Positions 3 through 56,334 of a DNA stretch of 64,000 bases are shown here, piece by piece. The first letter of the stretch is position 1. Every line of letters starts with the position of its first letter. Origin of the DNA: Rhodoferax antarcticus ANT.BR (GTDB lineage: Bacteria; Pseudomonadota; Gammaproteobacteria; Burkholderiales; Burkholderiaceae_C); NCBI RefSeq assembly GCF_001938565.1, contig NZ_MSYM01000001.1, positions 124,001 to 188,000 on the forward strand. The letters are read 5' to 3'. The notes beneath the pieces are model-generated. The model saw nothing but the letters and a program-made list of their open reading frames with translations, made no database searches and was not told the origin of the DNA. The position numbers and the translations under genes were made by a program.

Positions 3-1205
3 CCCCGCTTGGCGTGCGAGCTGCAGGTGCAGGCGGTGTTTGCCGGGCGCGACGATGAGCCACAGGCGCTGGCGCGCGACCAACAGGTAGCACATGAATT
101 GCAAACTGCCGATATCACGCTGATCACCTGCAAGGACCATGTGATTTTTGAGCGCCGCGAGATCCTCACCCAAGGCGGCACGGTGTATGGCGTGTTTACG
201 CCGTATAAAAGAAACTGGTTGTCGCGCCTGGCCCCCGAGGACTTGGCTGACCACCCAATTGACGCGCTGGGCCAGCGGCTGGCAGCCCGGCCCCTGGAAT
301 TTCAGGCGCGGGTTCCGACGTTGGCTGACATTGGGTTCGAGAAAAGCAACCTGAGCACCCTCAAAATCCCCACCGGCATGCATGGCGGCAGCCAGTTGTT
401 TGAAGATTTTTTTGAGCGCATGGACAGCTACGACACCACGCGCGATTTCCCGGCCGTCAAAGGGCCGAGCTACCTGGGCGTGCATCTGCGTTTTGGCACC
501 GTATCCATCCGCCAACTGGTGGCCACGGCCTGGCAGCGCCAGTTGGCGGGAAGCGCGGGCGCGGCGGTGTGGCTTAGCGAGTTGGTATGGCGCGATTTCT
601 ATGTGAGCATTCTGGCGAATTTCCCGCAGGTGGCGCAAAGCGCGTTCAAGCCAGAATATGACGCGATTGCCTGGGAAACCGGCCTAGAAGCGCAGGCGCT
701 GTTTACCGCCTGGTGCGAAGGCCGCACCGGCTACCCGCTGGTGGACGCGGCCATGGCGCAAATCAACCAGACCGGCTATATGCACAACCGCCTGCGCATG
801 GTGGTGGGCAGTTTTCTGGTGAAAGACCTGGGGCTGGACTGGCGCTGGGGTGAGCGCTACTTTGCAGAACACCTGAACGACTTTGACCTGAGCGCCAACA
901 ACGGTGGCTGGCAGTGGGTGGCCTCCAGCGGCTGCGATGCGCAGCCGTACTTTCGCATCTTCAACCCGGTGAGCCAAAGCGAAAAATTTGACCCACAAGG
1001 CAAGTTCATCCGCCGCTACCTGCCACAACTGGCAGAGCTGTCCAACAAAAGCATTCACGCGCCGTGGCTGGCAAAACCGCTGGAACTACAGGCCGCAGGT
1101 GTGACCCTGGGTGGCAACTATCCGATCCCTATAGTGCAACACGACGAGGCGCGAGCCAAGACGCTGGCACGTTACGCGGTGGTGAAAAAAATCCCGAGCG
1201 CCTGA
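3..1205 (+). CDS. phrB: Deoxyribodipyrimidine photolyase, 5' end outside the window
   Basis: DNA repair photolyase of the cryptochrome/photolyase family, which uses light and reduced FAD to split pyrimidine dimers. The reading frame is open to the left edge, so the first 80-90 residues of the antenna (Rossmann) domain are missing and no start can be assigned. The visible part holds the end of that domain and the complete helical FAD domain: the stretch RTGYPLVDAAM, followed by MHNRLRMVVGSFL, WGERYFAEHLNDFDLSANN, GGWQWVASSGCD and FRIFNP, all hallmarks of class I CPD photolyases. The gene converges on chpA, and repeat R1 lies in the 109-bp gap between their stops. Confidence 0.93.
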   Translation, partial: PRLACELQVQAVFAGRDDEPQALARDQQVAHELQTADITLITCKDHVIFERREILTQGGTVYGVFTPYKRNWLSRLAPEDLADHPIDALGQRLAARPLEFQARVPTLADIGFEKSNLSTLKIPTGMHGGSQLFEDFFERMDSYDTTRDFPAVKGPSYLGVHLRFGTVSIRQLVATAWQRQLAGSAGAAVWLSELVWRDFYVSILANFPQVAQSAFKPEYDAIAWETGLEAQALFTAWCEGRTGYPLVDAAMAQINQTGYMHNRLRMVVGSFLVKDLGLDWRWGERYFAEHLNDFDLSANNGGWQWVASSGCDAQPYFRIFNPVSQSEKFDPQGKFIRRYLPQLAELSNKSIHAPWLAKPLELQAAGVTLGGNYPIPIVQHDEARAKTLARYAVVKKIPSA

Positions 1206-1277
1206 TTAACTGATGCACACCACCTGCCCAGCGTGGGCCAGTTAAGGGGCAGAGCCTTCGCTAAAAAATATACTTTT

Positions 1278-1314
1278 GATAGCTACTGGCGCTTATAGCG
1301 TAAGGGCTAGAAGT

Positions 1315-1320
<6 letters not shown>
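1278..1320 (+). repeat. Dispersed palindromic repeat, copy R1
   Basis: A diverged copy of the roughly 45-bp repeat found at least twelve times here: AGCTACTGGCGCTTAT, then TAAGGGCTAG, then AAGTCTATTT. It separates the convergent phrB and chpA genes. Its right edge contains the chpA stop codon (minus-strand TAG, 1315-1317), so the element appears to supply the end of that gene. Confidence 0.8.
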
Positions 1321-7305
<5,985 letters not shown>

Positions 7306-12853: not shown

Positions 12854-13084
12854 TCAACACTGAAGCTGGTGCGCTTACCGCCGCCCCACGCGAATGGGGC
12901 CTGCGCCCGCCAACCCCACCACCTGCCTTCAACGGTTTTAGAGGCGGTTGGGCTGGCAAGGGAGCGCAGCGGAATTCCCCTCCGGTAAAGCGCCTTGTTA
13001 GTCGACTTGCGCTTTGAGTTGCTGTTTTCTTTTTTCACCAAGTTCATTCCAGTGCTTGTCAGTCAAAGCGCCTTCAAATGAATA
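12854..13084. other. Decayed intergenic and cassette-derived sequence
   Basis: No convincing gene. In the minus direction the last 65 bp (13020-13084) stay in frame with the broken brnT on the other side of the IS and read SFEGALTDKHWNELGEKRKQ before a stop. The rest contains GGAG/CTCC-rich inverted segments resembling a degraded attC site, but no clean core-site pair could be found. Confidence 0.4.
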
Positions 13085-13109
13085 AGCTATTAATATTAAG
13101 TTAAATACG

Positions 13110-13283
13110 TCAAAAGTTAAATTCATATTTGGACCCAAAGTTGTCAAGTATGTCACCAACATCAGCCTCCAAGGTTTCGCTGTCGCGACAATTGGCGGAC
13201 ATCCAGGTGTATTTCATCAGGTGCCAAAGCTTTTTAATGCGATTAAGCTCCGGACTATACGAAGGGAGAAAATAAAGTGTCAC
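13110..13283 (-). pseudogene. IS630 transposase, C-terminal frame (copy 1)
   Basis: A 57-codon frame starting at a GTG and reading TLYFLPSYSPELNRIKKLW, the last part of the IS630 DDE domain. In functional members the motif is PELNPIE with a catalytic Glu; here the position is Lys. The frame is offset from the preceding ORF (LLENKV then stop versus GVTLYFLP), so a further -1 shift would be needed for a complete protein. Too short to be a separate gene. Confidence 0.75.
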
Positions 13284-13702
13284 ACCTTGTTTTCCAGCAA
13301 AGCCATGATTGGCTTGGTCGCCTTCGCTTTGTGAACTGATGCATTGTCAATGATGACGGTTATTTTCTTCCCAACGTGTTCCTTGAGCAAGCCAATGAAT
13401 CCAGCAAATATTTCTGCCGTTGTAGATTGCCAAATTTTGGCGCTGAATAGTTCCCCGGTGGACAGCATGGCAGCCAGCACGTTGAGCCGTTTTCCGCGTT
13501 TGGCCTCACTCAAATGACGACTTCCTTTGGGTGTCCAAGCGCTGCGATTGGGGTGTACTTGCGAGAATCCTGCCTCGTCACAGTAGGCCAACACCATCTC
13601 ACCCGCAGCGGCTTGCGACCGCAGTCCAGCGATCCCTACTTGGGCAGATCTGAAAGCGGCTTCGTCTCTTTTTTTTTGAGTGATGAACGTGTGCGTTTCC
13701 AT
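13280..13702 (-). CDS. IS630 transposase, central DDE frame (copy 1)
   Basis: A 140-residue product with the first and second catalytic Asp motifs (AYCDEAGFSQVHPNRSAW and VIIDNASVHKAKA). It overlaps the HTH frame across a run of nine A (plus-strand T run, 13669-13677), where a -1 slip would join LKKK to RDEAAFRS, the order expected in intact IS630 transposases. It ends prematurely in LLENKV. Confidence 0.85.
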   Translation of the reverse strand: METHTFITQKKRDEAAFRSAQVGIAGLRSQAAAGEMVLAYCDEAGFSQVHPNRSAWTPKGSRHLSEAKRGKRLNVLAAMLSTGELFSAKIWQSTTAEIFAGFIGLLKEHVGKKITVIIDNASVHKAKATKPIMALLENKV

Positions 13703-25774: not shown

Positions 25775-27616
25775 ATGCCGCGTACCGCCCGTCCTCGTAC
25801 CGCCCCGCCCTGCCCGCTGGACTACCAGGTCAGCGTGGCTGACCTGCACGCCCACCTGTTTGCGGTCACGCTGACCGTTGCCCGCCCGCAAGCCAGTCAA
25901 ATTGTGAGTTTGCCGGTGTGGATTGCCGGCAGCTACATGGTGCGCGAGTTTTCCAAACACCTGCAGAGCCTGCAGGCGCAGCAAGGCAAGCAGGCGCTGG
26001 CCATCACCCAGTTGGACAAATGCACTTGGCAAGTGGACTGCCAGACTAGCAAACCCCTGACGCTGAGCTACCAGGTTTACGCCTTTGATAACTCGGTACG
26101 CACCGCTTGGCTGGATACGCAACGCGGCTTTTTCAACGGCACCAGCCTGTGCCTGAAAGTGCACGGCCAGGAAGACCAGCCGCACCGCCTCACGCTTGCC
26201 CGCAGCGGCTGGCCCAAAGATTGGCAAGCGGCCACCGCGCTGCGACCCGACCAAGCCGATAAAAACGGTTTTGGCAGCTACCTGGCCGCTGATTACGACG
26301 AATTGGTCGACTCGCCGGTGGAAATGGGCGCTTTCTGGAGTGCCAACTTCACCGCCCGTGGCGTGCCGCACCGCTTTGTGGTGGCCGGTGCCAGCGCCAG
26401 CTTTGACAGCGCGCGCCTGCTGGCCGACACGCAAGCCATTTGCGAAGCCGAGATCGACTTCTGGCACGGCAAAGCGGCGAAGCGCCAAGCCAAAGGCAAG
26501 GGCGAAACTGCCCAAAGCCGACCGCCGCACGACCGTTATGTCTTCATGCTCAACGCGGTGGACAACAGCTACGGCGGGCTGGAGCACCGCCACAGCACCG
26601 CACTCATCTGCAAACGCGCCGACCTACCGCGCCTGGGTCAAGCCAAAGCCTTGACCGCCATGCACGGCTACACCAGCCTGCTGGGCCTGATCAGCCACGA
26701 GTACTTTCACACCTGGAACGTCAAGCGCCTGCGCCCTGCCGAATTCGCGCGCTATGACTATGCAAGCGAAAACTACACCGAACTGCTGTGGTTTTTTGAA
26801 GGCTTCACCAGTTACTACGACGACCTTCTGCTGCTGCGCGCAGGCCTGATTGACGACACCACCTACTTGGCCCTGTTGGGCAAAGCGCTCAACGCCGTGC
26901 TGCAAACCCCCGGCCGCCAAGTGCAAAGCGTGGCGCAGGCCAGCTTTGACGCCTGGGTCAAGTACTACCGGCAAGACGAAAACACCCTAAACGCCACCAT
27001 CAGCTACTACACCTTGGGCTCGCTGGTGGCGCTGTGTCTGGATTTAAGCCTGCGCCAAGGGGGCAAAACCAGCCTGGACGCGGTGATGCGCGCGCTGTGG
27101 CAGCGCTGCGCAGGCGGCCCAATGACGGAGGCTGACCTGCTGGCCGTGCTGCAGGCGCTGTCTGGAGAATCCTTTGCCGACCGGCTGGCCGCCTGGGTGC
27201 ACAGCACCACCGAGATGCCAGTGAAAGAACTGCTCGCCCAACAAGGTGTCACGCTGAAAGAAGAAGCGGCACCGCTGGCCGATCAACTCGGCCTGAAAGT
27301 GGCCGAGCTCGCAGGCATTCGCATCAGGGCGGTGCTGCGCGGCAGCGCGGCCGAGCAAGCCGGGCTGGCCGCAGGTGACGAGTGGCTGGGCATGGAAGTG
27401 GGCGCGGGCAAAGCCGCCCAAGGCTGGCGCCTGACAAAGTTGGATGACTTGCCGCTGTATCTGGGCAGCGCCAAAACCTTCCGCGCGCTGCTGGCCCGCG
27501 ACCAGCGGCTGGTGTCTCTCAGCCTAAATTTGCCCGATTCGGTGCGCGTCATCAAACTGCTTAAGTCCAGTAAAGCAGACCCTGCTTTGACTTGGCCTGC
27601 GCTGACTGTTTATTAG
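25775..27616 (+). CDS. M61-family (glycyl aminopeptidase-like) metallopeptidase with PDZ domain
   Basis: A 613-residue protein. The N-terminal beta domain (ISLPVWIAGSYMVREFSKH-like sequence) precedes the zinc-peptidase domain with HEYFHTWNVKRLRP at about 306-319, where the two His and a downstream Glu in LLWFFEGFTSYYDDLL bind zinc. A PDZ-like segment near 515-560 (VLRGSAAEQAGLAAGDEWLG) follows. No clear signal peptide is seen. The substrate is unknown. The TAG stop is the first contact with repeat R5. Confidence 0.9.
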   Translation: MPRTARPRTAPPCPLDYQVSVADLHAHLFAVTLTVARPQASQIVSLPVWIAGSYMVREFSKHLQSLQAQQGKQALAITQLDKCTWQVDCQTSKPLTLSYQVYAFDNSVRTAWLDTQRGFFNGTSLCLKVHGQEDQPHRLTLARSGWPKDWQAATALRPDQADKNGFGSYLAADYDELVDSPVEMGAFWSANFTARGVPHRFVVAGASASFDSARLLADTQAICEAEIDFWHGKAAKRQAKGKGETAQSRPPHDRYVFMLNAVDNSYGGLEHRHSTALICKRADLPRLGQAKALTAMHGYTSLLGLISHEYFHTWNVKRLRPAEFARYDYASENYTELLWFFEGFTSYYDDLLLLRAGLIDDTTYLALLGKALNAVLQTPGRQVQSVAQASFDAWVKYYRQDENTLNATISYYTLGSLVALCLDLSLRQGGKTSLDAVMRALWQRCAGGPMTEADLLAVLQALSGESFADRLAAWVHSTTEMPVKELLAQQGVTLKEEAAPLADQLGLKVAELAGIRIRAVLRGSAAEQAGLAAGDEWLGMEVGAGKAAQGWRLTKLDDLPLYLGSAKTFRALLARDQRLVSLSLNLPDSVRVIKLLKSSKADPALTWPALTVY

Positions 27617-27663
27617 GTTTTTAGCCCTCTAGCCCTTATGCCAAAAGGGATGGTAGCTATATA
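27615..27663 (-). repeat. Dispersed palindromic repeat, copy R5
   Basis: Minus-oriented copy (CCTCTAGCCCTTAT, then GGTAGCTAT on the plus strand). It fills the space between the M61 stop (27614-27616) and the TGA of the thiolase fossil (27666-27668), so it sits exactly between two convergent gene ends. Confidence 0.85.
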
Positions 27664-27665
27664 AA

Positions 27666-27750
27666 TCAAAGCATGTTTAGCGCCACCACCGTGGCTTCAC
27701 CGCCACCGATACATAGGGTAGCAACGCCTTTTTTAAGCCGCGAGGGAAAG
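27666..27750 (-). pseudogene. C-terminal remnant of an acetyl-CoA acetyltransferase (thiolase)
   Basis: The minus strand reads SRLKKGVATLCIGGGEATVV, then ALNML and a TGA. GVATLCIGGGEA is the C-terminal signature of thiolases, containing the last catalytic Cys loop and the glycine-rich segment. Upstream of it the frame carries no further thiolase sequence, so only about 27 codons survive, bounded by repeats R5 and R6. Confidence 0.7.
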
Positions 27751-27822
27751 AAGGCATCAGTTTTCTCTTTGCGGCTGGCTCGCTATACCACTAGGTGTTT
27801 CGCTGGCTGGCCTCTTTAAAAA

Positions 27823-27872
27823 CAATAGCTGTGAGCGCTTATGGGATAAGGGCTAGAGGTCAAAAAAGTCTA
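27823..27872 (+). repeat. Dispersed palindromic repeat, copy R6
   Basis: AATAGCTGTGAGCGCTTATG, then GGATAAGGGCTAGAGGTC, then AAAAAAGTCTAT. Its right edge contains a minus-strand TAG (27870-27872) that ends another fossil reading frame. Confidence 0.85.
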
Positions 27873-28030
27873 TATTTTTATTGCCGCCAGCCGAGCGGCG
27901 TGGTTGGTGATCTCCAGCCCACGCTCGCAAGCTGCTTTGGTGGGTGCCGCGCTGGTAATTTGCCAATACTGTTGATACACCATTAACCAAATGCCGCCGG
28001 TTTGCACAATCAAGCCGACGGCTGTTGATG
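27870..28030 (-). pseudogene. C-terminal remnant of an unidentified gene
   Basis: About 53 minus-strand codons with protein-like content (VGLIVQTGGIWLMVYQQYWQ, then TKAACERGLEITNHAARLAA) ending in a TAG at the edge of repeat R6. No start or family can be assigned. The remaining 157 bp up to the next gene show no structure I can support. Confidence 0.4.
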
Positions 28031-28187: not shown

Positions 28188-29810
28188 CTATTGGCATTTC
28201 CTGGCAGCAGCAGCTTCCATACTAGAAAAGGAGTTGTTTCCGCCCAGGCCAATAGCCCCCCATTTGGCGTTCTTATCACGGTACATTTTGTGTTCGGCAC
28301 CGCCGCTGCAACGGATCAAAAAGATGGTGTGGGTCGCGTCAAACCCAAATTCAGCAAAGCCACCTTGGTATTGCCTGATTAGCTTCCAGCTATCGCTTCG
28401 GTCTTTAGCCGCAGTTACGCGGCTGGTATCTGCCGGCACGCTCGATGCCTCTGAGTTTCTTCTCTGCACGGTTTGATCTACTGCGCTGGCCTTGGCTCCG
28501 GCCTCATTGCTGACACGCGCCATCTCGTCGTAGATACCTGCTGCCACCTGGCTTTTTGACACATTGGTACTGCGATCCGCTCGCTGAAACGCAAGGTCTA
28601 CCGGGTGAACACCGCCAAGCAATGAGTGACTCAAGGTGTCGGCGTCCGACGCCATCGCGGTGAGAGGGGCAGGTGATAGAACAATGTTGACGATTTCCAG
28701 AACAGGCGTTTGTGTTGCCTGGAAAACTTTAGTGCCGCCAAACGTCATACCCGATGCCATGCCGGTGCCACCGGCTGCCGCTTGCCACTCCATTTGATAG
28801 CTGGCCATTGCTCGGTAGCCGTTGCTTTTGGCAAGCACCAACTCTATGGGCTGGTCGAAGGTTTTAGTTTCTTCATTGTCAAAGTCGCAATCGCTCACTA
28901 GCATGAGGCCGCATGGACGGTTACCCCTCGATCGCCCCGTCACCTTCAGACGCGCCACGGCCTTAACGATATGGTCGAGTTGCGGTTTGTACAACTTGGT
29001 GTCTAGCGCCGCGTCGACACTCAATTTCGAATTGACAGTGGCGTTAACACGCCGACCCGCCACCTGGGACAGTATCGAATCATCGCCTCCCGAAGAGTAA
29101 CTTTCACCGCCAGCGTTCAATTTGGCGTTGAGAACCAACATTTTGGCTTGCAAAGCATCGAGCATCGCAGCCTCAACAGTAGTGCTTTGTCGTGGTGTCA
29201 TAGCCAGGTCGAAGGCATTGCGCATGAGTGACCGATCAGCCGAGCTCTTGTACTGCGCCAGAAGCTCGGTGATTTGCACGCTGGCTTGGACAGTGGCTCG
29301 TGCGCTTTCCAGCACCTCAGGAGCAAAGGTCGATAAAACTTGATCGACGTAGGTTAGCTGCTGCTTTTTTAAATCTAGCGCGCTTTGTGCGTTCAATTGG
29401 ACCAGCATCAAATAGGCACTGCGATCCGGGCCCTGTAAGCCGCGCGTGTTGAGCAAAATAGGTTGGACTATGGTCCACCTGCTGACCATCTGTGGAAAGT
29501 CTTTTTGCTCACTGTCTGGAGACAGTATTGCTATTGCCGGCAGATCCTTGAGCACGGCTTCAAAGGTAGCCAACAAGTGTTCCAAGCCTTTTCTATTCGC
29601 GAGAAAGTGCGCCGCTTTGTCCACTGGTACAAAGTAGGCGGTTTCCTGCTGCCTTTCCTGCTTGTAGTTTTGCAACTTGATGGCGTTGCCGTGGACGTTG
29701 ATCTGCCCATACGCGGCACCAGCCCATAAACTGAAGGTAAGCGCAATGAATGCTGCACCTTTGGTTATTGGCGTTCGGGATTTAAAAAAAGCTAGAAGTT
29801 TTGGATGCAT
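28188..29810 (-). CDS. Orphan exported protein, 540 residues
   Basis: I do not recognise the family. A Sec signal peptide is visible (basic start, then GAAFIALTFSLWAGAAYGQ with cleavage after AYG or YGQ). The mature part is mainly helical and hydrophilic to about residue 240, then has GGESYSSGGDDS, a beta-rich section with CGLMLVSDCDFD, and a C-terminal domain ending FLIRCSGGAEHKMYRDKNAK and ARKCQ. Four cysteines suggest two disulfides. The ATG is part of the TA target into which IS630 copy 2 inserted, so any native promoter and leader now lie 1.1 kb away. Composition is less GC-rich than neighbouring genes, consistent with acquisition. Confidence 0.65.
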   Translation of the reverse strand: MHPKLLAFFKSRTPITKGAAFIALTFSLWAGAAYGQINVHGNAIKLQNYKQERQQETAYFVPVDKAAHFLANRKGLEHLLATFEAVLKDLPAIAILSPDSEQKDFPQMVSRWTIVQPILLNTRGLQGPDRSAYLMLVQLNAQSALDLKKQQLTYVDQVLSTFAPEVLESARATVQASVQITELLAQYKSSADRSLMRNAFDLAMTPRQSTTVEAAMLDALQAKMLVLNAKLNAGGESYSSGGDDSILSQVAGRRVNATVNSKLSVDAALDTKLYKPQLDHIVKAVARLKVTGRSRGNRPCGLMLVSDCDFDNEETKTFDQPIELVLAKSNGYRAMASYQMEWQAAAGGTGMASGMTFGGTKVFQATQTPVLEIVNIVLSPAPLTAMASDADTLSHSLLGGVHPVDLAFQRADRSTNVSKSQVAAGIYDEMARVSNEAGAKASAVDQTVQRRNSEASSVPADTSRVTAAKDRSDSWKLIRQYQGGFAEFGFDATHTIFLIRCSGGAEHKMYRDKNAKWGAIGLGGNNSFSSMEAAAARKCQ

Positions 29811-29827
29811 AAGTTATTAATATTAAG

Positions 29828-30010
29828 TTAGATACGTCCAAAGTTAAATTTATATTTGGACCCAAAGTTGTCAAGTATGTCACCAACATCAGCCTCCAAG
29901 GTTTCGCTGTCGCGACACTTGGCGGACACCCAGGTGTATTTCATCAGGTGCCAAAGCTTTTTAATACGATTAAGCTCCGGACTATACGGAGGGAGAAAAT
30001 AAAGTGTCAC
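29828..30010 (-). pseudogene. IS630 transposase, C-terminal frame (copy 2)
   Basis: A 60-residue frame (TLYFLPPYSPELNRIKKLWH, then GDILDNFGSKYKF). As in copy 1, the third catalytic acid is replaced (PELNRIKK instead of PELNPIE) and the frame is offset by one base from the central ORF. Confidence 0.75.
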
Positions 30011-30429
30011 ACCTTGTTTTCCAGCAAAGCCATGATTGGCTTGGTCGCCTTCGCTTTGTGAACTGATGCATTGTCAATGATGACGGTTATTTTCTTCCCA
30101 ACGTGTTCCTTGAGCAAGCCAATGAATCCAGCAAATATTTCTGCCGTTGTAGATTGCCAAATTTTGGCGCTGAATAGTTCCCCGGTGGACAGCATGGCAG
30201 CCAGCACGTTGAGCCGTTTTCCGCGTTTGGCCTCACTCAAATGACGACTTCCTTTGGGTGTCCAAGCGCTGCGATTGGGGTGTACTTGCGAGAATCCTGC
30301 CTCGTCACAGTAGGCCAACACCATCTCACCCGCAGCGGCTTGCGAACGCAGTCCAGCGATCTCTACTTGGGCAGATCTGAAAGCGGCTTCGTCTCTTTTT
30401 TTTTGAGCGATGAACGTGTGCGTTTTCAT
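30007..30429 (-). CDS. IS630 transposase, central DDE frame (copy 2)
   Basis: 140 residues with AYCDEAGFS and VIIDNASVHKAKA, almost identical to copy 1 (differences such as KTHTFIA for ETHTFIT). Here the ATG overlaps a TGA that closes the HTH frame (ATGA), so this frame could be expressed by translational coupling instead of slippage. The A9 run is conserved at 30396-30404. Confidence 0.85.
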   Translation of the reverse strand: MKTHTFIAQKKRDEAAFRSAQVEIAGLRSQAAAGEMVLAYCDEAGFSQVHPNRSAWTPKGSRHLSEAKRGKRLNVLAAMLSTGELFSAKIWQSTTAEIFAGFIGLLKEHVGKKITVIIDNASVHKAKATKPIMALLENKV

Positions 30430-42461: not shown

Positions 42462-43220
42462 TCAAGCCGGGTTGTCGATGTCGATGAATACATGTTCCAG
42501 TCCAAACTGGTTAGCCACATGCGCTGCTACGGCAGGGGCACCATAGCGCTCGGTGGCATGGTGACCGCACGCCAGGTAAGCCACACCACATTCGCGGGCC
42601 AGGTGGGTTTGCGGCTCGGATAATTCGCCGGTGATGAAGGCATCTGCTCCGGCGGCAATGGCCGCCTCGAAATAGCTCTGCGCACCACCGCTGCACCATG
42701 CTATTTTTTTAATAGTTATCTGCGCTTTATTTATAAGGGCTACAGGCCTATTTAGTATATAAGCGACATGGTCTGCCAAGGCCTGGGCTGATTCAAAACC
42801 GGGGCCGTTGGCGCGCTCGCCCAGCCACCCCAGGTTCTGCTCACCAAAGCTGGCTTGGCCCACCAGGCCCAGTTTGCGGGCGAGTTGTGCGTTGTTGCCC
42901 AACTCGGGGTGGGCGTCCATCGGCAGGTGGTAGGCCAGCAGATTGATGTCATGGGCCAGCAGCAGCGCCAGGCGCTGCTTCATCCAGCCGGTCACGCAAC
43001 CACTCTGACCGCGCCAGAACAAGCCGTGGTGCACCAGCAGGGTGTCTGCTCTGGCCTCAATGGCGGCTTCAATAAGCGCTCGGCTGGCCGTGACCCCGCA
43101 GACGATTTTGCGAACCTGTGCGCCGCCTTCCACCTGCAGGCCGTTGGGGCCATAGTCGCGAAACTGCGCGGGCTCTAGCAAAGCGTCGAGTGCGCCCAGA
43201 AGTTCGTTGCGGTGAATCAT
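42462..43220 (-). CDS. Nif3-like dinuclear metal centre protein, with a repeat-derived segment
   Basis: A 252-residue Nif3/YbgI/GTP-cyclohydrolase-I-type-2 family protein of uncertain function. Metal ligands are in LLVHHGLFWRG, LAYHLPMDAHPELGNNAQLA and LACGHHATERYG. At residues about 155-172 the coding DNA is repeat R8, giving YILNRPVALINKAQITIKK just before the conserved IAWCSGGAQSYF. Related proteins have here a variable strand-loop of similar length (recalled), so the element seems to have replaced or rebuilt a tolerant loop without breaking the frame. It lies 7 bp upstream of pdxA. Confidence 0.9.
   Translation of the reverse strand: MIHRNELLGALDALLEPAQFRDYGPNGLQVEGGAQVRKIVCGVTASRALIEAAIEARADTLLVHHGLFWRGQSGCVTGWMKQRLALLLAHDINLLAYHLPMDAHPELGNNAQLARKLGLVGQASFGEQNLGWLGERANGPGFESAQALADHVAYILNRPVALINKAQITIKKIAWCSGGAQSYFEAAIAAGADAFITGELSEPQTHLARECGVAYLACGHHATERYGAPAVAAHVANQFGLEHVFIDIDNPA
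42711..42756 (+). repeat. Dispersed palindromic repeat, copy R8, inside a coding region
   Basis: AATAGTTATCTGCGCTTTAT, then TTATAAGGGCTACAGGCCTA, then TTT: close to the consensus of the intergenic copies but lying wholly within the Nif3-family gene, where the minus strand translates it as LNRPVALINKAQITI. The flanking gene remains open and conserved on both sides. Confidence 0.88.
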
Positions 43221-48082: not shown

Positions 48083-48116
48083 GAAAGCATTGTCCCTGAT
48101 CAGCGGGACAATCTAA

Positions 48117-48166
48117 ATTGATAGCTATCAGCGCTTTATTTATAAGGGCTGGAGGCCAATTTTTCT
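48117..48166 (+). repeat. Dispersed palindromic repeat, copy R9
   Basis: TGATAGCTATCAGCGCTTTA, then TTTATAAGGGCTGGAGGCCA, then ATTTTTC. It abuts the hisF stop codon (48166-48168) and occupies most of the hisF-hisI gap, so it is transcribed as part of the his operon. Confidence 0.9.
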
Positions 48167-48966
48167 TAGAACCTGACGGGAATGCCTCGCTCAGCCATGC
48201 GGGCCTTGGCCTGCGCCACGGTGAACTCGCCGTAGTGAAAGATGCTGGCCGCCAGCACCGCATCCGCGCCTCCAAGCTGAATGCCGTCGGCCAGATGGTC
48301 CAGCGTGCCTACGCCGCCCGAGGCAATCACTGGCACACTCACTGCATCGCTCACCGCACGGGTCAGTGCCAAGTCAAAGCCAGCCTTGGTGCCGTCGCGG
48401 TCCATGCTGGTGAGCAAAATCTCACCCGCGCCAAACTCCGCCATCTGGGTCGCCCAGGCCACCGCATCCAGGCCGGTGTTTTGGCGTCCGCCGTGGCTGT
48501 ACACGTCCCAGCCTTCGCCTACAGGTTGGCCATTGGCGCCAAGTCGCAAAGCGTCTTCAGCAGTGCGCCGTTTGGCATCGATGGCCACCACGATGCACTG
48601 CGCACCGTACTTGCGCGACGCATCACGAATGATCTGCGGGTTGGCAATCGCCGCCGAATTGAAACTGGTTTTGTCCGCCCCAGCATTCAGCAGGCGGCGC
48701 ACATCTTCCACCGTGCGCACACCACCACCGACAGTCAGCGGAATGAACACCTGACTGGCCACCGCCTCAATGATGTGCAGAATCAGGTCGCGCCCGTCAC
48801 TGGTCGCGGTGATGTCGAGAAAGGTGAGCTCGTCCGCACCCTGATCGTTGTAGCGCGCCGCAATTTCCACCGGATCACCGGCGTCGCGCAGTTCGACAAA
48901 GTTGACGCCCTTGACAACCCGGCCACCGGTCACGTCCAAACAGGCAATGATGCGTTTAGCCAGCAT
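48166..48966 (-). CDS. hisF: Imidazole glycerol phosphate synthase, cyclase subunit
   Basis: With HisH forms the enzyme making imidazole glycerol phosphate and AICAR. 266 residues, a TIM barrel: [20 protein letters not shown] (first catalytic Asp), [43 protein letters not shown] and [15 protein letters not shown] (second catalytic Asp), [13 protein letters not shown]. The AICAR product links to PurH elsewhere in this window. The stop abuts repeat R9. Confidence 0.97.
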
Positions 48967-50007: not shown

Positions 50008-50691
50008 TCAAGGATTCCAGTGAAGAAAGTTGCGGTACAGGGCCAGCCCGTGGTCAGCACTTTTTTCGGGATGAAATTGTGTCGCAAAAATATTATCACG
50101 TGCAATAGCCGAACTAAAGCGCTGGCCATAGTCTGTCTCGCCCACGCTGTGGCGCGCATCCGACGGTTTGGCGTAAAAACTGTGCACAAAGTAGAAATAG
50201 CTGCCGTCGGGCACCTCACCCCACACCGGGTGCGGCGCGCCGCTATGGTTGTTGCGCCACACCTGGTTCCAGCCCATTTGCGGCACCTTGTAGCGGCTGG
50301 CGTCGGGTTGCAACTGGCCTACTAGGTCAAATTTGCTGACCTGGCCGTGGATCAGGCCCAGCCCCGGCGTGTCGCCCTCGGCGCTGTGATCTAGCAGCAT
50401 CTGCATGCCGACACACACACCAAACAGCGGCTTGTTGGCTGCGGCTTCCAGTACCGATTCCTGCAGACCGGATTCACGCAGCTCGCGCATGCAATCCGGC
50501 ATGGCGCCCTGGCCGGGCAGCACCACGCGTTCGGCCGCGCGCACCTCGTCAGGGTTAGCGGTGATGACCACTTGGTAACCAGTGCCCACCGCCGCCGCCT
50601 GCACCGCCTGCGATACCGATCGCAAATTGCCCATGCCGTAATCGACCACCGCTACGATTTTTTCCGAGGGATTAGTAGATACACTATTCAT
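50008..50691 (-). CDS. hisH: Imidazole glycerol phosphate synthase, glutaminase subunit
   Basis: Supplies ammonia to HisF. 227 residues, class I glutamine amidotransferase: [32 protein letters not shown], nucleophile in [19 protein letters not shown], and the His-Glu pair in [14 protein letters not shown]. The start codon falls on the edge of repeat R10. Confidence 0.96.
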
Positions 50692-50738
50692 AGCTATCAG
50701 CGCTTATATCTAAAGGGCCAGAGGCCAATTTGGCATAT
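50690..50738 (+). repeat. Dispersed palindromic repeat, copy R10
   Basis: ATAGCTATCAGCGCTTATAT, then CTAAAGGGCCAGAGGCCAA, then TTTGGC. It fills the 50-bp gap between the hisB stop (50742-50744) and the hisH start (50689-50691). The hisH ATG is formed by the CATAGCT edge of the element. Confidence 0.88.
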
Positions 50739-50741
50739 AAA

Positions 50742-52492: not shown

Positions 52493-52558
52493 GAGGCGAA
52501 AGGCAAAGAAGCGTCGTCTAAAAAATTTTCTTGGGAATAGATGGTTGCAATGCCCCGA

Positions 52559-53050
52559 TTAAGGTGCGGCGGAACTGTGATCCGGGGCGGGAAAAGCCTG
52601 GTACAGCCACTCGGTAAGCACCCAGCGCAGCGCAGCGTCCAAGTTCTGCAGCGCCTGGGTGCTTGGCGCTTCACCCAGTTCAACGCGCTCAGCGCGGATC
52701 GCCAGCAGCGTACAGGGCGGTGGCGATGTGGCGTGCAGTTCCTGGTACAAATGCAGCAGCCCAGGGGGCGACAAGGGGTCGGAGGTGTAACTTTGGTCCG
52801 GCGCCGGCAGCGGCTGGCTCACCTCAAATGGCGTAGCGCCGCTCAGGCTGGCGTTGACCAAAAGCACATGCCTGCGCCCAAGCAGTGCCATCGCGTGCTC
52901 GATCTTCAACTGGAATTCATCCAGAAACTCGACCTGCTCGCGCAGACGATCCGGCAGGCCGAGGTGCAGCGCATCCAGCAACAAGGGGCCCAGCGCATCG
53001 TCGCCACGGCTGAGGTTGCCCCAGCCCAAAATCAACACAGGGGCGCTCAT
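52559..53050 (-). CDS. Hydrogenase maturation protease-like protein
   Basis: 163 residues of the HyaD/HybD/HoxW fold: VLILGWGNLSRGDDALGPLL at the N-terminus, FLDEFQLKIEHAMALLGRRH and VLLVNASLSG. These peptidases trim the large subunit of NiFe hydrogenase after metal insertion. The acidic Ni-sensing position after GNLSRG is Asp, and a usual VDAS is VNAS. No hydrogenase genes are in the window, and it lies inside the his operon. It may act on a hydrogenase encoded elsewhere or be a divergent member. Confidence 0.75.
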   Translation of the reverse strand: MSAPVLILGWGNLSRGDDALGPLLLDALHLGLPDRLREQVEFLDEFQLKIEHAMALLGRRHVLLVNASLSGATPFEVSQPLPAPDQSYTSDPLSPPGLLHLYQELHATSPPPCTLLAIRAERVELGEAPSTQALQNLDAALRWVLTEWLYQAFPAPDHSSAAP

Positions 53051-53076
53051 ACGCGGCACATACTCAGTACTGAAAC

Positions 53077-53122
53077 TGTAGCTACCAACGCTTTATCTAT
53101 AAGGGCTAGAGGCATAAAAAGC
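53077..53122 (+). repeat. Dispersed palindromic repeat, copy R11
   Basis: TGTAGCTACCAACGCTTTAT, then CTATAAGGGCTAGAGGC, then ATAAAAAGC. It abuts the stop (53123-53125) of the small hypothetical gene and precedes the protease-like gene by 27 bp. Confidence 0.9.
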
Positions 53123-53422
53123 TTATAACTCCAAAAGGCTGTAAACATGTGTCGCCTGACCACTGGATGCGCTGTTTAGCGGGCCCAACTGCTTTGGGTC
53201 GGCGGCTGCAAGGCTCATCACCAGCGGCATCTGGCCCAGCGCTTTGGTGGCGCATGAAAGGAGCGAATCATAGGCCTGATTCGCCACGTCGATGTTCTTG
53301 AGCAAACCCTCGGTCAGTTCATGTCCATCCAGATCGTCGTGCGCCACTGAACGCACCAACGACAACAGTTTCGACTTAAAGCCGCTCAACCTGTTATCTG
53401 GCCCCGGAGGTTGCGCTGACAC
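53123..53422 (-). CDS. Small hypothetical protein between hisD and the protease-like gene
   Basis: 99 residues from a GTG 14 bp after the hisD stop, with no clear Shine-Dalgarno. Composition is protein-like (LLSLVRSVAHDDLDGHELTE, then GLLKNIDVANQAYDSLLSCA). No family recognised and no membrane segment. Its place next to the hydrogenase-protease-like gene suggests they may have arrived together. The stop touches repeat R11. Confidence 0.5.
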   Translation of the reverse strand: MSAQPPGPDNRLSGFKSKLLSLVRSVAHDDLDGHELTEGLLKNIDVANQAYDSLLSCATKALGQMPLVMSLAAADPKQLGPLNSASSGQATHVYSLLEL

Positions 53423-53436
53423 GCAGCAAACCGAGT

Positions 53437-54810
53437 TTAGTCAGGCGTCTTCAAGCGCATTTCAGCCGCCCGCGCATGGGCCTGCAAACCTTCGCCGTGT
53501 GCAAGGACCAAGGCAATCTGCCCCAGCGTTTGCGCCCCGGCCTCGCTGACTTCAATAAGGCTGCTGCGCTTTTGAAAGTCGTAAACACCCAGGGGTGACG
53601 AAAAGCGCGCGGTGCCGCTGGTAGGCAGCACATGGTTGGGGCCGGCACAGTAGTCGCCCAGGCTCTCGGAGGTGTACGCCCCGAGAAAAATCGCGCCAGC
53701 GTGCTTCAGCAGCGGCTCCCAGCGGTGCGGGTCGCGGCTGGAGACCTCCAGATGCTCGGGTGCGATGCGGTTGGCAATGTCGCAGGCCTCTTCCATGCTG
53801 CGGGTGAGGATCAGCGCGCCGCGGTCGTTGAGGCTTTTGGCGATGATCTCGCGCCGTGGCATCTCAGGCAACAGGCGGTTGATGCTTTCCTGCACCTGGT
53901 CGATGTAGTCTTTGTCAGGGCACAGCAGGATGCTTTGCGCCAACTCGTCGTGTTCAGCCTGGCTGAACAGGTCCATCGCCACCCAATCCGGCGGCGTACT
54001 GCCATCAGCCAGCACCAAAATCTCGCTGGGGCCGGCAATCATGTCGATGCCGACGGTGCCGAACACGCGGCGCTTGGCGGCGGCCACGTAGGCATTGCCG
54101 GGGCCGGTGATCTTGTGCACGGCGGGAATCGTCAGTGTGCCATAGGCCAGCGCGGCCACGGCCTGCGCGCCACCAATGGTGAAGACGCGGCTGACGCCCG
54201 CGACATAGGCGGCGGCCAGCACCAGTGTGTTGACTTCAGGTTTGGCGTCAGATGCAGCGCCATTACCGCCGCTGGCCACGCTGCCGCGTACCGGGGTCGG
54301 CACCACCATGATGATCTCGCCGACACCGGCCACATGCGCGGGAATGGCATTCATCAGCACGCTGGAGGGGTACGCCGCCTTGCCGCCGGGCACGTAGATG
54401 CCGACGCGGTCCAGCGGGGTGACCTTCTGGCCAAGCAGGGTGCCATCGGCGTCGCGGTAGCTCCAGCTCTCGCCGCTGGCTTGCTTTTGCGCCTCGTGGT
54501 AGCTGCGCACGCGTTTGGCGGCCTGCTCCAGCGCATAGCGCTGTGCATCAGGCAAGGCGTCAAAGGCACTTTTTAGCTCAGCTTGCGTGAGTTCCAGTTC
54601 AGCCACGCTGGCCGCCTGCAGGCCGTCAAAACGCGCGGTGTAGTCCAGCACAGCGGCATCACCACGGTGTTGCACGTCAGCCAGGATGTCGGCCACACGC
54701 TGTTCGATGCCCGCATCAGTCTCGGCAGACCAGTACAGACGCGCCTTGAATTCAGCTTCAAAAGTGCTGCTAGCCGTTGATAAATATGCGGGGGTAGCTA
54801 TGACTTTCAT
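53437..54810 (-). CDS. hisD: Histidinol dehydrogenase
   Basis: Last two steps of histidine synthesis, zinc-dependent and NAD-linked. 457 residues: [81 protein letters not shown] and [20 protein letters not shown]. The ATG at 54810 starts family-like sequence. The first 15 codons ([13 protein letters not shown]) lie in DNA resembling a decayed copy of the dispersed repeat. Confidence 0.96.
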
Positions 54811-54859
54811 TGCGACTTGACGAAGAATTAGACGTGGAATGAACCGATGAAAAAACCAG

Positions 54860-55072
54860 CTAGGCTTGATTTGGCCGTTGTGCCCGAATGGCAGCGGCGA
54901 TACTTTTGACAGTTTCACCCTTGAACAGGGGCTCGCGCTCTCGCGTGTAGTCGCCGCTACCTGCTTGAAACTGGTTTAGAAACCGGATTGCATCCGTCAC
55001 CCCCAGTTCCTGAATCAGAACCTGCCTTGCTCGTTGCGAAATTTCAGCTAGCGGATGAATAACTGCGTTCAT
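54860..55072 (-). CDS. Putative antitoxin partner of the PIN protein
   Basis: 70 residues ([20 protein letters not shown], then [20 protein letters not shown]) with an antitoxin-like helical core followed by a basic tail. Starts with a strong GGAGG 7 nt upstream and overlaps the PIN gene stop by 4 nt. Assigned as antitoxin from size and pairing with the PIN gene. Confidence 0.7.
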
Positions 55073-55526: not shown

Positions 55527-56171
55527 TTATTGTGATGCCCCGACAGCGGACTCAAACGCGTCAATGATCGGACGAATCTGCGCCTGCTTGAGCTTGAGGG
55601 CGGCCTGGTTCACCACCAGGCGCGAGGTGATGTCCATGATGTGCTCCACCTCAACTAGATGGTTGGCCTTGAGGGTGTTGCCGGTGGACACCAAATCGAC
55701 AATCGCGTCGGCCATGCCTACCAGGGGTGCGAGTTCCATGCTGCCGTAGAGCTTGATCAGGTCCACGTGCACACCCTTGGAGGCAAAAAACTCGCGCGCA
55801 ATCGCCACATACTTGGTCGCCACCGTCAGGCGTGACCCCTTTTTGACAGCGGTTTTGTAATCAAAGTCCGAACGCACCGCCACGCTGATGCGGCATTGGG
55901 CAATGTGCAAGTCCAGCGGTTGGTACAGGCCCTGGCTGCCGTGCTCCAGCAGCGTGTCTTTGCCGGTAATGCCCATGTCGGCACCGCCGTACTGCACATA
56001 AGTGGGCACATCGGTGGCGCGCACCACCAGCACCCGCACATCGGGCTGGTTGGTGGTCAAGATCAGTTTGCGCGAGGTGTCCGGGTCTTCCAGCACCTCG
56101 ATACCAGCGGCCTTGAGCAGAGGCAAGGTTTCTTCAAAGATGCGTCCTTTGGACAATGCAATAGTGATCAT
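55527..56171 (-). CDS. hisG: ATP phosphoribosyltransferase, short form
   Basis: First and committed step of histidine synthesis. 214 residues: [62 protein letters not shown] and [20 protein letters not shown]. It lacks the C-terminal regulatory domain of long HisG, so it should need HisZ encoded elsewhere. The apparent Shine-Dalgarno GAGG, 5 nt before the ATG, is the end of repeat R12. Confidence 0.96.
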
Positions 56172-56212
56172 TTTGGCCTCTAGACCTTATAAAGCCTGCG
56201 TAAGCAGCTATA
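56171..56212 (-). repeat. Dispersed palindromic repeat, copy R12, at the hisG start
   Basis: Read on the minus strand: TATAGCTGCTTACGCAGGC, then TTTATAAGGTCTAGAGGCCA, then AA ending in the hisG ATG. The CTAGAGGCC part of the element provides GAGG at ribosome-binding-site distance. The rest of the 163-bp gap to murA holds no gene. Confidence 0.85.
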
Positions 56213-56334
56213 ACAACAATAGTAAGAACAGCATCGCATCGTCTGCTTTCATGGCGTGAGCGCCGCCGGGCCGCCCCAAGGCGCGCGGGCCCCATCGGGG
56301 GGCAACGAAGTACACAAAGTGACGAGCGCGGGGG

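Follow-up and report, generated by a model that had tools for sequence, protein, structure and literature searches.

A genome-wide DNA motif appears to be written into existing codons of the nif3 gene in Rhodoferax antarcticus

In a 64,000-nucleotide stretch of the Rhodoferax antarcticus ANT.BR genome (contig NZ_MSYM01000001.1, positions 124,001 to 188,000, hereafter the window), one copy of a dispersed repeat motif, called R8, lies within the DUF34/NIF3 (nif3) gene. A first-pass annotation had proposed that R8 is translated in frame and parallels the palindromic elements that insert into proteins of Rickettsia. The observation was confirmed, and insertion was rejected for this site; the motif appears to have been written into existing Nif3 codons by something acting on DNA throughout the genome. 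Maintenance at the DNA level is well supported, and that it takes place in situ, by some means, we consider very probable. The data support the in situ character of the sites, a constraint on codons, persistence at orthologous positions, joint loss and lineage dialects. The full explanation, in which motif sites would be maintained in place, codons pulled to the motif and sites left to drift after loss of the system, we put at a probability of about 0.5.

A motif copy read in frame within nif3

The motif is about 62 bases long and carries about 54 bits in a profile of 65 columns. The window and 400 kb of one contig, together 464 kb of the genome, gave 87 copies at E<=1e-3, a number that includes the 70 copies used for training; as controls, the reversed sequence and five sets of block-shuffled sequence gave no match to the same 70-copy profile at this threshold. 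A refined profile gave 90 copies, 33 of them inside genes by a rough gene call. Extrapolated to the whole genome of 4.0 Mb, this corresponds to about 750 copies, or a density of about 0.2 per kb. The gene and its copy are:

42462 to 43220, minus strand: DUF34/NIF3 gene (ybgI-like), 252 amino acids (Pfam PF01784, 225 bits, E 1.2e-66)
42699 to 42762, plus strand (gene on minus): R8, motif copy within nif3, coding for AYILNRPVALINKAQITIKKIA, residues about 152 to 173; 41.7 bits, E 3e-11

Rhodoferax records were the top named matches to the window nif3, and its protein matched the structure of YbgI (1nmo, E 5.9e-63). R8 spans columns 2 to 65 of the 65-column profile, which was built from the 70 copies with R8 excluded (E computed in 464 kb), so that a repeat copy translated inside nif3 was recovered from outside the training set. 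The earlier extent of 42711 to 42756 lies within this match, which is longer. Reading the minus strand gives LNRPVALINKAQITI, as had been described; the peptide does not directly precede IAWCSGGAQ, since two lysines (KK) intervene. The sequences of copies R2 and R9 do contain the nearly identical peptides reported for them, and the element has indeed a tolerated open frame in the nif3 orientation, as 30 of 82 in-gene copies from three genomes (G000, G010 and G032) share that frame class.

The protein itself looks intact. H63, H64, H97, D101, H219, H220 and E223, which we take to be the metal ligands, did not vary in an alignment of the window protein with 20 orthologues, whose titles name about a dozen genera, in line with the earlier statement that the metal-site motifs are preserved. 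In the same alignment, R157 was invariant and A173, in the IAWC strand, nearly so, although both lie in the repeat-coded part. In an AlphaFold2 model (mean predicted local distance difference test score 91.5) the repeat-coded segment covers the end of helix 144-155, a turn, strand 160-162, loop 163-171 and the start of strand 172-175. The segment is thus more than a surface loop, as the helix end, the short strand and the start of the IAWC strand are also covered.

Outside the genus, the nif3 stretch of Ramlibacter sp. H39-3-26 (L048:216-962) scored 23 bits, and several Polaromonas and Variovorax nif3 genes carry partly AT-rich versions of the repeat stretch.

Length, codons and loss across the genus

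Four genes, for a carboxyltransferase, AroA, a DUF3683 protein and Nif3, were compared over orthologues from up to 35 genomes of the genus. For nif3, 30 loci were compared, out of 33 genus genomes with a match, and for AroA and DUF3683 30 loci each, from 34 and 34 genomes. For the carboxyltransferase, 26 of 30 loci were used, as two paralogues (about 50 percent), one locus at 34 percent and one fragment were dropped. Genomes were split by us into carriers and repeat-free genomes on the basis of first-look candidate counts, which are not confirmed copy numbers; G026, G015 and G016, with one or two matches, were classed as repeat-free.

No change in protein length was observed at residues 150-180 in any of the 30 nif3 loci, and the site was gap-free in 26/26 carboxyltransferase and 29/30 AroA-Cmk loci. 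The insertion model was rejected on length for these three genes. Judged from the aligned sequences, R8 is thus probably not an insertion, and the Rickettsia-type reading of the nif3 site is rejected; the conserved R157 and A173 and the codon-level change in AroA described below also oppose it. The first-pass annotation had named, as the finding that would overturn it, the same peptide and DNA in orthologues from genomes lacking the repeat. This test did not overturn it: none of the 15 repeat-free genus genomes with a nif3 locus scored at the site, whereas 10 of 15 carriers reached at least 10 bits (early profile from 11 window copies without R8).

A constraint was seen at the level of codons. 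In carriers, the GC content at third codon positions (GC3) of the stretch was 0.30 in the carboxyltransferase, 0.35 in AroA, 0.41 in DUF3683 and 0.36 in nif3, and that of the gene part before the stretch was 0.76, 0.74, 0.76 and 0.71, respectively. In repeat-free genomes the stretch itself had values of 0.65, 0.65, 0.64 and 0.68. For the gene part after the stretch, determined in the carrier G000 alone, GC3 was 0.60-0.80. At unchanged residues, codon identity among carriers was higher in the stretch than elsewhere (0.83 versus 0.63, 0.63 versus 0.55, 0.68 versus 0.62 and 0.59 versus 0.49, in the same gene order), while among repeat-free genomes it was lower (0.49 versus 0.65, 0.43 versus 0.52, 0.43 versus 0.57 and 0.46 versus 0.50). 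The codon identity of the carriers' stretch was reached by few of their control windows: 4/160 in the carboxyltransferase, 14/201 in AroA and 3/55 in nif3. AroA was the clearest case. Here the peptide DASSASYFIALGAIA is nearly constant in carriers and other genomes alike, while the codons shift to the motif, including ATA codons, which are rare in GC-rich genomes; conserved residues are kept under the repeat and codon changes predominate. The in-gene stretches of carriers are therefore under a codon-level constraint, which the data support.

The motif also differs between lineages. The cores of the intergenic consensus read ATAAGGGCTAG in G000, ATAAGCGCTAG in G010 and ACGGGGGCTAG in G032. Tested against intergenic profiles of the three lineages, 106 of 127 intergenic copies fitted their own lineage best in a leave-one-out classification (53/59, 35/44 and 18/24), and so did 50 of 75 in-gene copies (18/31, 12/19 and 20/25), with one third expected by even assignment; copies that did not align were omitted (7/82 in-gene, 4/28 G032 intergenic). 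Changes from GGG to GCG were seen at orthologous sites of the carboxyltransferase in G010 and of DUF3683 in G010 and G023. Lineages hence have dialects which in-gene copies tend to follow.

Matches at E<=0.01 were present in 37 of 60 genomes of the genus and in 30 of 120 genomes of the family (one genome per genus), and were found in none of 16 genomes from other families. In a midpoint-rooted tree of 33 genomes, calculated from four proteins with the repeat stretches removed, the repeat-free pair G003 and G021 (0-1 first-look candidates each) falls within the clade of the carriers G008, G010, G013, G023, G031 and G033 (support 1.00), as sister to G008 (0.99). The four sites are all GC-rich in G003; in G021 this holds for those of AroA and DUF3683, and the carboxyltransferase site of this genome is absent from the comparison data. 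Most likely, this pair has lost the motif genome-wide, many parallel gains around it being less simple.

Spacers between genes gave a comparable picture. Orthologues of the spacer with the copy at 48113-48169 contain copies in G004, G032 and G010 and a weak one in L031; no copy was detected in G003 (100 bases) or G024 (151 bases), and the spacer measured 84-100 bases in all genomes shown except G024. For the copy at 50678-50739, orthologous copies occur in G024, G004 and G032, again with a weak one in L031. No copy was detected in the spacers of similar length in G003 and G010, part of the core remaining in G010, and the spacer after gene 50008 measured 75-81 bases (short gene ends included) in all seven genomes shown, with or without the motif. 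Distant carriers thus retain motif copies in orthologous spacers whose lengths are similar, which the data support.

Copies in the window and inside genes

The window contains twelve clear motif copies, R8 among them, and one weak copy. The remaining copies are:

1269 to 1328, plus strand: motif copy between open reading frames (ORFs) 9-1205 (plus) and 1315-7305 (minus); 46.5 bits
12682 to 12745, plus strand: motif copy; 62.7 bits
18460 to 18513, minus strand: motif copy; 55.5 bits
20499 to 20559, plus strand: motif copy; 49.9 bits
27612 to 27673, minus strand: motif copy, arm of an inverted pair with 27814-27874; 44.8 bits
27814 to 27874, plus strand: motif copy, arm of an inverted pair with 27612-27673; 42.7 bits
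31019 to 31081, minus strand: motif copy; 48.2 bits
48113 to 48169, plus strand: motif copy in a spacer of 84 bases; 52.8 bits
50678 to 50739, plus strand: motif copy that extends from a spacer of about 50 bases into the start of gene 50008-50691 (minus); 46.9 bits
53068 to 53127, plus strand: motif copy forming the 3' end of ORF 52541-53128; 47.8 bits
54760 to 54813, minus strand: weak copy inside the histidinol dehydrogenase gene, N-terminal part (frame 53440-54975; PF00815, E 1.5e-163); 18.4 bits, E 5.6e-4
56167 to 56224, minus strand: motif copy; 37.8 bits

The inverted pair at 27612-27874, with 202 bases from centre to centre, is situated between ORFs 25775-27616 (plus) and 28188-29810 (minus). 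Two other repeats were observed in the window: a direct repeat of 300 bases, 97 percent identical, at 13078-13377 and 29805-30104, with ORFs of 140 and 198 amino acids next to both copies, which may reflect a recent duplication or a mobile gene, and a short tandem repeat of GCTCTG type at 4302-4357, inside the 1,996-codon ORF 1315-7305.

Copies showed no orientation bias (37 on the plus and 37 on the minus strand in 400 kb). Twelve were located in divergent and 44 in convergent spacers, the base totals of which are nearly equal; fewer copies in divergent spacers are as expected of passive sites. In the consensus, near-invariant positions alternate with free ones. Intergenic copies are dispersed and have 56-60 percent AT; inside in-gene copies the AT content was 0.53-0.56, in the next 15 bases 0.49-0.54, then 0.37-0.40, and farther out 0.34-0.39.

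Searching open frames in the 464 kb gave 42 candidate in-gene matches at E<=0.1. By the stricter rule of E<=1e-3, 29 of the 87 copies were in genes, a count that rests on an open-frame and GC-position rule. With lineage-refined profiles and a rough gene caller, 33/90, 25/66 and 29/57 copies were in genes in the three genomes (about 37 to 51 percent). Both orientations occur, and 64 of the 82 in-gene copies fall into two frame classes, mostly one frame per strand. A Pfam family was assigned to 19 of 20 candidate host proteins checked. Among these were the carboxyltransferase, AroA-Cmk, an ABC transporter, 2-oxoacid dehydrogenase E2, IlvD, DUF2201, a type ISP enzyme (two copies), the DUF3683/FAD-oxidase protein, an AraC regulator, two photolyase-type proteins, an outer membrane efflux protein, an Era-type GTPase, TldD/PmbA, peptidase S49, histidinol dehydrogenase (hisD), RlmJ, TrpF and a HemN-type radical SAM protein, the copy of which (13.6 bits) lies under the E<=1e-3 line. 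Many copies are positioned between domains or near the N-terminus, some within domains (AroA, carboxyltransferase).

On plasmid NZ_CP019241.1 of R. antarcticus, a copy of 46.6 bits (L382:2489-2547) lies inside an annotated FtsX-like permease gene, in a frame that looks identical to that of nif3. The 65-base consensus matched 0 of 50,697 phage and 1 of 72,556 plasmid records, the share of records from this family being uncounted.

An RNA family was considered as the identity of the motif, and no Rfam match supported it: at gathering score only a tRNA was found in the window, and at one strong motif copy only a microRNA model far under the gathering score. A hairpin as the conserved feature was likewise rejected, since the palindrome is good in the G010 consensus and broken in that of G032.

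Possible agents and what the motif may mean

We propose that R8 would be one of about 750 (extrapolated) sites of a long, sequence-specific, double-stranded DNA motif, kept in place by an agent that works genome-wide and would have to act on all sites of one genome together. Within genes, codons would be drawn toward the motif, chiefly through synonymous and tolerated amino-acid changes, with one preferred frame per strand. Once the system is lost in a lineage, in-gene sites would drift away from the motif and most would regain GC-rich codons. The occurrence of both orientations and both gene strands, together with the broken palindrome in one dialect, argues for a signal in double-stranded DNA and against an RNA or hairpin function.

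The closest analogy is the DNA uptake sequence (DUS) of Neisseriaceae and the uptake signal sequence (USS) of Pasteurellaceae. Uptake sequences are described as arising by point mutation without insertion, as forming dialects and as having no orientation bias, and, like the motif, as occurring in hundreds of copies in and between genes, fewer in coding than in non-coding sequence (PMC7811141, PMC1939737, PMC3630211). Our motif likewise appears to have arisen through base substitutions at existing sites, as seen for nif3, the carboxyltransferase, AroA and two spacers, with one gene and one spacer as exceptions, and its three dialects are each shared by the copies of a genome. As uptake-biased exchange is a known process that leaves in situ, dialect-forming marks of unbiased orientation, we favor uptake- or recombination-biased transfer between cells as the agent, a tentative choice resting on this analogy, which we judge the most likely though still short of probable. 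There are also differences. Compared with about 62 bases and 54 bits, the DUS/USS core has 9-12 bases; the density of about 0.2 per kb contrasts with the 1,465-2,206 USS copies given for the small H. influenzae genome (PMC7811141); uptake sequences show a continuum of near matches, whereas the scores of the motif are peaked; and the motif belongs to another bacterial family and is known here from its sequence. ComEC, which was detected in 56 of 60 genus genomes, both with and without the repeat, did not discriminate carriers.

Several observations weigh against the proposed explanation. At the level of single genes, the DUF3683 loop varies in length (gap-free in 11/30) and its excess of codon identity is weak, as 77 of 411 control windows reach it; in the wider family, 10 of 80 named nif3 loci differ at the R8 site by 1-4 residues or by compensating gaps, and the loop can therefore vary over longer times. 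The nif3 stretch of G021 has no motif score, yet its third positions are still AT-rich (GC3 0.36), so reversion is incomplete there. For a third spacer, the three genomes with a clear copy exceed four copy-free genomes by about 40-90 bases, G032 being an exception with 100 bases and no copy; some copies may therefore have come by insertion, although the difference would fit insertion or deletion. The dialects are imperfect as well: the main miss is that the G032 profile is the better fit for 11 of the 31 in-gene copies from G000, and in AroA a dialect change is not clear, the CGGGGG core being common to several lineages and not confined to G032. Even spacing was not significant, with a coefficient of variation of 0.83 in G000 (0.066 of random sets were as even) and 1.09 in G032. 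Two features misfit uptake-biased exchange in particular: the length and information of the motif, far beyond known uptake sequences, and the score distribution, with its maximum at 25-50 bits and few copies between 10 and 20 bits (7 in G000, 8 in G032), though more in G010 (15), where the peak is less sharp.

The peaked scores are accounted for if the copies are sites at which a DNA-binding protein attaches to the chromosome (with a role in the nucleoid, segregation or repair), each preserved through ordinary selection, with dialects that track the specificity of the protein. Such a protein would be nearly as good an account as uptake-biased exchange, since it explains maintenance, joint loss and dialects equally, and the alternation of near-invariant and free positions resembles a multi-part binding site. 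Hundreds of sites of about 54 bits each would, however, be unusual for single-site selection, several lineages without detectable copies speak against an essential role, and no candidate protein turned up, no unbiased search for one having been made; we regard this possibility as less likely than not. A templated overwriting, in which a single-stranded repeat copy, for example from a REP-type (repetitive extragenic palindromic) transposase, anneals at partial matches and is copied in without change of length while selection filters the genes, seems more doubtful. It would explain why AT-rich patches end within a few tens of bases and how dialects are homogenised, and in G000 a REP-type transposase domain is followed, about 330 bases downstream, by a copy (L281:2489-2546), with a weak counterpart at the same position in G010 (L329:1249-1301). 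But the retention of conserved AroA residues, with the motif reached mainly via synonymous codons, is unexpected under overwriting; REP-type transposases occur in 22/22 genus genomes searched, including repeat-free ones; and of 12 carrier loci surrounding these genes (1.3-6 kb each), six hold copies, about the expectation of one per 5 kb, as compared without a formal test.

In-frame insertion of a mobile palindromic element has on its side the many copies, the in-frame reading, the preferred open frames and the length differences of a loop and a spacer at two loci examined. Three of the four genes show no length change, however, apart from one of 30 AroA loci, the repeat overlies conserved residues of host proteins, and orthologous spacers of similar length hold copies in distant species. 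We consider it very improbable in general and largely refuted for nif3. The Rickettsia elements are similar in forming a repeat family inside many proteins that is translated in frame, but are described as inserts of some 150 bases that encode a peptide (PMC10969869); the present motif causes no length change in three of four genes and is read on both strands. Least plausible, to a negligible degree, is ordinary coding sequence that resembles the repeat through chance or local AT-richness. In its favor, the stretch can be aligned to orthologues over its full length, but chance resemblance is excluded by the E value of 3e-11 with R8 untrained and by the absence of control matches, and repeat-free relatives score nothing at the nif3 site and are, as a group and with the exception of G021, GC-rich there.

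Two known types of repeat were also compared. The motif resembles REP sequences, which are associated with REP-associated tyrosine transposases (RAYTs), in that its consensus is partly palindromic in two dialects, that it is often intergenic and that it occurs in hundreds of copies, and a RAYT-type gene (PF01797) is present. It differs in that 37 to 51 percent of copies are inside genes and not extragenic and in that the palindrome is broken in the G032 consensus. This identity was rejected, as PF01797 was present in those 22 genomes whatever their repeat count and no clear excess of copies was seen near the gene. Betaproteobacterial repeat elements (BREs) are described as 40-90 bases long and in some cases located in coding sequences, with 4 in Rhodoferax ferrireducens, 29 in Polaromonas sp. 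JS666, and 29 as the maximum per genome, and those of Bordetella as averaging 69 percent GC and partly tandem (PMC3110155). The dispersed, AT-rich intergenic copies of the motif differ from this, the BRE being set apart by its description and not by its sequence. In the open-access literature searched, no report of the motif was found, a search with four core strings giving one unrelated paper.

Returning to in situ maintenance by a genome-wide agent, stretches like R8 should not be taken for protein inserts. Even if the agent were a chromosome-binding protein, the motif would be a large set of codon-constraining sites for which the searched literature gave no report. Strong uptake preference for short motifs is described for two families among the competent bacteria tested (PMC7811141). 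If a third family has a long motif that forms dialects and lies inside genes, this would offer a natural experiment on how proteins are reshaped by a force at the level of DNA, and the repeat-free species that branch among the carriers allow its gain and loss to be tested. The Comamonadaceae might conceivably hold, as a bold suggestion that we advance with reserve, a third self-recognition sequence system of independent origin, whose motif, at about 60 bases, would be longer than any other of this type. If this is true, the system would rewrite codons of hundreds of genes, including those of core metabolism, would split into lineage dialects, and would decay genome-wide upon loss of its receptor.
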